This document shows positions 27,614 through 33,696 of a stretch of DNA of 64,000 nucleotides, piece after piece. The stretch lies in contig NZ_BNJG01000001.1 in the NCBI RefSeq assembly GCF_016587375.1, positions 2,356,001-2,420,000 of the forward strand, given 5' to 3'. The notes beneath the pieces are model-generated. The model was not told the origin of the DNA and did no database searches. It was given only the letters and a program-made list of their open reading frames with translations. The stretch comes from Ktedonobacter robiniae. GTDB taxonomy: Bacteria > Chloroflexota > Ktedonobacteria > Ktedonobacterales > Ktedonobacteraceae. Made by a program: the position numbers and the translations under genes. Positions within the stretch are counted from its first letter, which is position 1, and each line of letters opens with the position of its first letter.

Positions 27614-27653
27614 AAACAGAAATAAAAGAAACCGCCCATGTGAGCGGGTGAAA

Positions 27654-27765
27654 CGGCGGTGCCCTATTTTCCCGTGGGGCTGCCCCCAAAGTATCGTTGG
27701 AGCTGAAGAGCTTAACTACCGTGTTCGGGATGGGAACGGGTGTACCCTCTTCGCAATAACCACCG
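27654..27765 (-). rRNA. rrf: 5S ribosomal RNA, copy 3
   Basis: Same 112-nt sequence as the other copies, with helix-I ends CGGTGG/CCGCCG. Minus strand, own promoter. The downstream stem is CACCCG/TGGGCG followed by T-rich TTTCTTTT. Confidence 0.95.
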
Positions 27766-27805
27766 GTTCGCCTGCGCATACAAGCGGTTCCGATTGACAT
27801 GATGC

Positions 27806-27834
27806 ATAATACCATCCTCTTGGCGATTTGTCAA
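27806..27834 (-). promoter_or_regulatory. Promoter of 5S rRNA copy 3
   Basis: Minus strand: TTGACA (27829-27834), 17-bp spacer, TATTAT (27806-27811). Confidence 0.85.
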
Positions 27835-27861
27835 CGCTTTTTTGATGAGTTTTCAAAAAGT

Positions 27862-29957: not shown

Positions 29958-30470
29958 ATGTCGCGTATTCCTCCTGATAATAAAATAGCCATCTCCATGG
30001 AGAATACTCCTGGTGGCGCGACGATGGAGTCACTCTTTCGCGTCATGGCACATCGGCCAGAGCTTATGCAGCCAGCGCTGCAACTGGTCGAAGCCGCGAT
30101 GCGCAGTGGCACCGTAGAGCCGCAGCTAAAAGAGCTGGTGGCGATTCGCGTCTCCCAGGTCAATCACTGTTCATATTGAATGGCTGCTCATACTGCCTTG
30201 GCAAGGCAGCTGGGTGTGAAGGAAGAGTTGCTCGATGCGCTCTACCATATTGATCGCCATCGCCACCTCTTTACGGGGCGCGAGCTGGTTGCGCTACACT
30301 ATGCGGAGGTCGTGACGACGAGCGCGCGCGATGTAAGCGAAGAGTTATGGGACGAGCTGCAAGAGTACTTTGACGATGGAGAGATTGTTGAGATTACGAC
30401 CGTTGTCGGCCTCTTCAACTTTTTTAATCGTTTCGCGGATGCATTGAAGATTAACCCACCACCAACATAA
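29958..30470 (+). CDS. AhpD/carboxymuconolactone decarboxylase-like selenoprotein candidate (CxxU)
   Basis: The frame runs 29958-30470 with a single in-frame TGA at 30177-30179 (codon 74). Reading through it gives a 170-residue AhpD-like protein. The motif VSQVNHCSY-TGA-MAAH matches the family consensus N-x-C-x-Y-C-x-x-x-H, so TGA falls exactly on the second, peroxidatic-site Cys of CxxC. The coding pattern and family similarity continue on both sides (KELVAIR before; ALARQLGVKEELLDAL after). A hairpin starts 13 nt after the TGA. Interpreted as Cys71-x-x-Sec74, a thiol oxidoreductase or peroxidase. ATG 29958 follows AGAGGA. Alternatives: a nonsense mutation or a sequencing error; ATG 30180 directly after the TGA could allow reinitiation. 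Confidence 0.7.
30187..30214 (+). promoter_or_regulatory. SECIS-like hairpin after the in-frame UGA
   Basis: Upper stem CTGCCTT (30193-30199) / AAGGCAG (30203-30209), 7 perfect pairs closing a GGC loop. Lower stem CTCA/TGGG across a small internal loop. The apical loop lies ~20 nt after the UGA and begins with G, as bacterial SECIS elements require. Chance formation inside coding DNA is possible. Confidence 0.6.
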
Positions 30471-30484
30471 GGAAAATAAGAGTT

Positions 30485-30730
30485 ATGGCGAATACAGAAG
30501 AGAAATACCAGGCGCTTTTGAAAGATCTGCAAGAGCTGGCGGTCTATTTGCATGGACGCGGCGATAAAACGCTGGCGCTCTCACAACAGTTTTCGGCCAA
30601 TGCACAGAAAGATCCAGGCAATCGCGACTTTGACCTTAACCAGTCGCGTATGCTGGATTATCAGCACCATATCTGGCACGAAATCGGCAACAAAGTTGAC
30701 CAGTTGCTCAAACTCTACGAACGTCAGTAA
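30485..30730 (+). CDS. Hypothetical protein, 81 aa
   Basis: Not recognised. Mostly helical, charged and soluble (YQALLKDLQELAVYLHGRGD). Starts 14 bp after the selenoprotein candidate behind AAGGAAAATAAG, so it is likely co-transcribed with it. A palindrome ends the unit. No cysteines, no membrane helix. Confidence 0.6.
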   Translation: MANTEEKYQALLKDLQELAVYLHGRGDKTLALSQQFSANAQKDPGNRDFDLNQSRMLDYQHHIWHEIGNKVDQLLKLYERQ

Positions 30731-30784
30731 GTAGCCGCGTACGCCAGTAGCGGGTTCGCCCGCTACTGGCGTACGCGGCTACTT
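30729..30784. terminator. Long perfect palindrome (26-bp stem, loop TTCG)
   Basis: Arms 30729-30754 and 30759-30784 around a UUCG-type loop. It overlaps the stop of the 81-aa gene and precedes the end of the convergent YtxH-like gene. Confidence 0.75.
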
Positions 30785-33374: not shown

Positions 33375-33414
33375 TGACTTTTTGATGACCTTTGAAAAGT
33401 CGCAAAAAAAAGCG

Positions 33415-33443
33415 TTGACAAATCGCCAAGAGGATGGTATTAT
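33415..33443 (+). promoter_or_regulatory. Promoter of 5S rRNA copy 4
   Basis: TTGACA (33415-33420), 17-bp spacer, TATTAT (33438-33443). Confidence 0.85.
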
Positions 33444-33483
33444 GCATCATGTCAATCGGAACCGCTTGTATGCGCAGGCGAAC

Positions 33484-33595
33484 CGGTGGTTATTGCGAAG
33501 AGGGTACACCCGTTCCCATCCCGAACACGGTAGTTAAGCTCTTCAGCTCCAACGATACTTTGGGGGCAGCCCCACGGGAAAATAGGACACCGCCG
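33484..33595 (+). rRNA. rrf: 5S ribosomal RNA, copy 4
   Basis: Same sequence and boundaries as the other copies. Downstream stem ACCCGC region/TGGGCGG then TTTCTTTTATTT, followed at once by a 34-bp palindrome. Confidence 0.95.
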
Positions 33596-33625
33596 TTTCA
33601 CCCGCTCACATGGGCGGTTTCTTTT

Positions 33626-33696
33626 ATTTCTAGCAGAGAGCATGATGGCCCTGGCAGCCTGCGGCTACCAGGGCCATCATGCTCTCTGCTAGAAAT
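33626..33696. terminator. Long palindrome (34-bp stem with one mismatch, loop TGC)
   Basis: Arms 33626-33659 and 33663-33696. The inner part has CCCTGGCAGCC/GGCTACCAGGG, shared with the palindromes at 563, 9231 and 19948. Confidence 0.7.

Follow-up and report, generated by a model that had tools for sequence, protein, structure and literature searches.

The gene at 29958-30470 of the window (the whole 64,000-nucleotide stretch of the Ktedonobacter robiniae genome that was analysed) is, with high probability, a real and whole selenoprotein gene in which the UGA at 30177 would be read as selenocysteine (Sec) at the active site of an AhpD-like protein. A candidate selenoprotein had been proposed here from the DNA letters alone, and the proposal was supported by the Sec machinery of the genome, by the alternation of TGA and Cys codons at the aligned column and by a covarying hairpin 3' of the TGA. 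The gene adds a firmly supported selenoprotein to the large soil bacteria of Chloroflexota, and standard-code gene calling would divide it at its active site. Features of the locus and of the Sec machinery are given in Table 1.

Table 1. Features of the selenoprotein locus (window positions) and Sec machinery genes (positions with prefix C1 or C2) in the K. robiniae genome.
Feature	Position	Strand	Remarks
AhpD-like selenoprotein gene	29958..30470	+	170 aa, Sec at position 74; translation with TGA = U
Cys71 codon TGT, first residue of CxxU	30168..30170	+	Invariant in 40 aligned relatives
UGA codon predicted to be read as selenocysteine (Sec74)	30177..30179	+	TGA 53/58, TGC/TGT 5/58 at aligned column
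Bacterial SECIS hairpin, stem CTGCCTT/AAGGCAG, loop GGC	30193..30209	+	99.7% of 294 cells paired; 4/7 pairs compensatory
Putative operon partner, 81-aa predicted helical hairpin	30485..30730	+	Starts 14 nt after selenoprotein stop
Terminator-like hairpin, 20 counted pairs	30733..30780	+	Pattern scan; T-tract weak
selA	C1:2332822-2334168		574 bits; ~52 kb from selenoprotein gene
selB	C1:2769774-2771759		334 bits (366 with C-terminal part)
selD	C2:1809024-1809950		386 bits
tRNA-Sec	C1:4193140-4193234		68 bits; ARAGORN anticodon tca

Conservation of the in-frame TGA

The frame opened with an ATG at 29958, carried a lone internal TGA at 30177-30179 and ended with a TAA stop at 30468-30470. The TGA occupied the second position of the CxxC motif (C71-S-Y-U74) in the context N-H-C-S-Y-U-M-A-A-H. 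Both coordinates and motif agreed with the original prediction, which had described a single TGA in an otherwise intact AhpD/carboxymuconolactone decarboxylase (CMD) frame at the second Cys of CxxC. The Pfam CMD profile PF02627 matched residues 34-98 with 57.5 bits (cut-off 23, E-value 1.4e-15), and this match spans the TGA, as expected from the earlier observation that the protein pattern runs on both sides of it. Alignment of 40 relatives showed that position 74 was as invariant as C71, and the start ATG and the MxRI.P N-terminus were kept among relatives. Purifying selection persisted 3' of the UGA with a dN of 0.096 and a dS of about 2.0, the latter near saturation, in comparison with the relative L021.

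The gene was found in 43 of 47 Ktedonobacteria genomes, 42 with a single TGA and one (G018) with Cys (TGC). A comparison of homologues had been suggested in order to see whether Cys or UGA occurs at this column; all 58 relatives compared, a number which includes the window's own copy, had one or the other and no other codon. Of the 42 TGA genomes, 39 had selA and the other three were drafts with 76-84% completeness. Three of the four class genomes without the gene were also without selA, and the fourth was 58% complete. Outside the class, a sample of the phylum and one Gemmatimonadaceae contig showed both TGA and Cys forms. A total of 704 plasmid records were found among the relatives, all with less than 60% identity and of no informative value. 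In the tree of Cys and Sec forms, L068, the only gene of the class with Cys, was placed among Sec genes, with open forks and long branches meeting; its position fits a reversion from Sec to Cys, with no direction claimed. Overall, Sec was kept across the class almost without reversion to Cys.

A second AhpD-type selenoprotein, which carries the motif GCEFU and shares about 31% identity with the window protein, was observed in other Ktedonobacteria (L088-L093). Its hairpin lies in a slightly different register and the protein matches the NCBIfam model NF053654 (358.5 bits for L089). This type of CEFU paralogue was not found in the host genome.

SECIS hairpin

A hairpin of 17 bases with a 7-bp stem and a G-first loop starts 13 nt after the TGA, and the element that had been read from the sequence was thus confirmed at 30193-30209. 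The loop G is 20 nt from the UGA and the hairpin conforms to the published bSECIS model (PMC13188914). In the lone window sequence, the hairpin is weak evidence and not exceptional. Its single-sequence fold z-score was only -0.64 against shuffles, and single-sequence folding was rejected as proof of a SECIS. In 8.4% of synonymous recodings of the downstream 20 codons, some acceptable hairpin with a G-first loop and 7 or more base pairs arose within the permitted range. The exact position of the hairpin is the unusual feature: only 8 of the 4608 encodings of T-A-L-A-R-Q gave a 7-bp stem there, a probability of approximately 1e-4 under the codon usage seen in three local genes.

Comparison among relatives showed that the pairing held throughout 42 distinct sequences (Table 1). 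The stem pairs with changes on both sides accounted for 34 cells compared to 9.9 in shuffles, and the covariation score was 0.334, a value reached by none of 500 shuffles, compared to 0.167 in shuffles. Shuffling does not remove relatedness, but the count of compensatory pairs and the slid controls, in which sliding the partner arm abolished the pairing, agreed with this result. As judged from these alignments, the comparative evidence for the SECIS hairpin is decisive and far beyond chance. The hairpin was absent at the SECIS place in all five Cys relatives. One of these (L086) has another G-first hairpin within the scanned range, so the presence of a hairpin anywhere would not discriminate between Sec and Cys forms.

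The residue encoded by the 3' arm (Arg, Lys, Gly or Glu) tracked base pairing among relatives. Where the Ala codon was GCT instead of GCC, the partner codon was AAG (Lys) or GAG (Glu) and not AGG (Arg) or GGG (Gly), and where the Leu codon was CTG, the partner codon was GGG or GAG. The codon choice for Ala and Leu is therefore matched by the partner codon and the protein sequence follows the RNA pairing. All 18 relatives bearing Arg used AGG, which is rare in the three local genes (4% of Arg codons). The residue that tracks the stem illustrates cleanly how an RNA signal constrains a protein sequence. The Rfam model SECIS_1 (RF00031) gave no match in the genome and none in the control genomes either. 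A covariance model of the window SECIS matched only the 29958-30470 gene in the genome and was too specific for other selenoproteins.

Selenocysteine machinery of the genome

The host genome (10.7 Mb) belongs to the Ktedonobacter group, with K. racemifer and Ktedonobacter sp. SOSP1-85 as near-identical relatives. The original prediction had proposed a search for selA, selB, selD and tRNA-Sec, and all four were present (Table 1). In addition, a Sec-type formate dehydrogenase alpha subunit with the motif IUHSS and a bSECIS-like hairpin after its UGA was identified at C1:3956500-3961000; it is an independent user of the Sec machinery and serves as a positive control. A second formate dehydrogenase, at C2:2462500-2466500, has decayed; it contains several stops and changes of frame, and its IUHS motif is still visible. 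A pair of EF-Tu-like genes, identical in score and in frame length, was also observed (C1:2336325-2337206 and C1:2511584-2512465), one of them near selA.

Alternative readings of the UGA

A lone stop in an intact frame resembles a young pseudogene or a base error, and the TGA might be a nonsense mutation or a miscalled TGC or TGT. However, the identical TGA was found in other genomes of the genus and class-wide in independent assemblies, which refutes both, and the purifying selection 3' of the TGA and the covariation of the hairpin also argue against them. Three observations had been named in advance as speaking against a selenoprotein, a genome without Sec machinery, reads with TGC or TGT at 30177 and relatives with random stops elsewhere in the gene, and none of them was borne out. 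A read error is excluded because genomes of the same genus carry the identical TGA, and the relatives had no other in-frame stops, which leaves practically no probability for mutation or error. The frame is also open under any code that reads TGA, and the UGA could be read as an ordinary amino acid, either by suppression or by reassignment to Trp. This is highly improbable. The genes of 27 of the 58 relatives end in TGA, so UGA is an ordinary stop in these genomes and has not been reassigned. Where the column lacks TGA it encodes Cys and in no case Trp, the hairpin goes with the TGA and the full Sec machinery is present.

The two halves might instead be used separately, as an N-terminal protein of 85 aa and a protein of 96 aa which starts from the ATG directly after the TGA. 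Both ORFs are in the mechanical ORF list, and an ATG follows the TGA here and in 26 of 42 distinct sequences, but the other 16 have different codons in this place (GAG, AAG, CTG and others). Separate use would place C71 and position 74, which belong to the same active site, in different proteins and leaves the alternation of TGA and Cys unexplained, and its probability is likewise put at very little. Insertion of selenocysteine at the UGA is the reading that is followed below.

Predicted structure and chemistry

The AlphaFold model of the window protein was all-helical with a pLDDT of 92.5. Foldseek showed that the nearest fold was PA0269/AhpD, with 36% structural-alignment identity and a TM-score of 0.92 by target length. 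The residues E59, C71, Y73, U74 and H78 were found at places aligned to the five-residue proton relay of PA0269 (Glu36, Cys48, Tyr50, Cys51 and His55; PMC3141380), as required of an AhpD catalytic site. Both Glu59 and His78 were lost in the relatives L078, L079, L084 and L088-L090, which keep CxxU; the exact relay is therefore not required family-wide, and a selenolate may perhaps need less help to ionise.

No AhpC orthologue over the family cut-off was found in the genome, where the best score was 57 bits against 272 and came from distant peroxiredoxins only, and none was found among the scanned neighbouring genes. The mycobacterial role as an AhpC adaptor is thus without its canonical partner in this genome, which favours a stand-alone thiol or peroxide oxidoreductase. 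At UGA 30177, selenocysteine would be inserted by SelB that carries Sec-tRNA-Sec and is docked on the hairpin (30193-30209), and the product would be an all-helical AhpD-fold enzyme of 170 residues. Sec74 would be the redox-active residue, paired with Cys71 as CxxU in a relay site formed by Glu59, Cys71, Tyr73, Sec74 and His78. In the most likely chemistry, its selenolate would attack a peroxide or another oxidised substrate, Cys71 would resolve the product by forming a selenylsulfide, and reduction of the selenylsulfide would fall to a thiol system of the cell. The predicted function is that of a Sec-dependent thiol or peroxide oxidoreductase.

Chemistry of the peroxidase type has about an even chance. 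A somewhat smaller, though real, chance is given to a selenoprotein that is not a peroxidase and whose CxxU reduces another substrate, such as a disulfide or an organohalide as in Bmp8. Bmp8 is an AhpD-fold debrominase, and Foldseek also gave its structures (6ohi/6ohj) with a TM-score of about 0.8 by query length. The lack of a canonical AhpC in the genome and the weak H2O2 reductase activity of PA0269 itself (PMC3141380) point in the same direction. On the other side, sequence and fold are nearest to PA0269 with the same relay residues, and the substrate cannot be told from sequence.

Downstream partner gene

At 34 selenoprotein loci, and likewise at the Cys locus L068, a homologue of the 81-aa downstream protein was encoded directly 3' of the gene. 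The partner was present in 40 class genomes, every one of which belongs to the 43 that bear the gene; the four genomes lacking the gene had no partner either. In several genomes (e.g. G036) the partner was distant or on another contig. The partner protein had no match in Pfam or NCBIfam. Its AlphaFold model (pLDDT 96.6) showed two long antiparallel helices, for which the fold search gave generic helical hairpins only and no match at E ≤ 0.001. The gene is probably an operon partner co-transcribed with the selenoprotein gene, and the 20-pair hairpin after it suggests a two-gene transcript.

Judging from this linkage, the partner protein may bind or scaffold the Sec enzyme. A bolder and tentative proposal, which we consider possible but rather less probable than its opposite, is that the two proteins make up an undescribed redox module of two components, passed down through almost all of the class Ktedonobacteria, with the helical-hairpin protein as obligate partner in the form of a scaffold, substrate-delivery or reductase-docking subunit. 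The conserved partner gene is a concrete lead on the role of AhpD-like selenoproteins. A perfect 226-nt inverted repeat was also observed in the window (27618-27843 and 33406-33631, arms 5.6 kb apart), and it flanks purE, purK, the selenoprotein unit and neighbouring genes.

Comparison with known AhpD-like proteins

AhpD-like CxxU selenoproteins are listed families (TIGR01926 / COG2128 / PF02627; PMC13188914, PMC2398784, PMC1794560). The window protein shares with them the AhpD/CMD fold, Sec at the second CxxC position and Cys homologues elsewhere, and the gene would be a class-wide addition to these published selenoproteins. It differs from the listed members in being near-universal in one class and in sharing a two-gene unit with the gene of a helical-hairpin protein. 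The searchable literature, the coverage of which is incomplete, yielded no paper that names an AhpD-like selenoprotein in Ktedonobacter. The window protein scored 79.9 bits with the peroxidase-related model TIGR01926, just below the cut-off of 81.8, while its relative L068 scored 95.2 bits. The best-scoring NCBIfam model was NF053654 (GroundWater_YciW, YciW-related (seleno)protein), with 91 bits against a cut-off of 310; the true members of that family here are the separate Ktedonobacterial CEFU paralogues such as L089.

PA0269 of Pseudomonas aeruginosa (PDB 2o4d, 2ijc and 7xw1), the nearest solved relative, shares the fold and the relay of Glu, Cys, Tyr, Cys and His, and has Cys where the window protein has Sec. 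Along the chain, its catalytic helices are positioned differently from those of Mycobacterium tuberculosis AhpD. The relay of the mycobacterial protein consists of Glu118, Cys130, His132, Cys133 and His137 (PMC3141380), and its spacing, E-x11-C-x2-C-x3-H, is that of the window protein. The two proteins are only about 10% identical, and Sec takes the place of the Cys133 equivalent.
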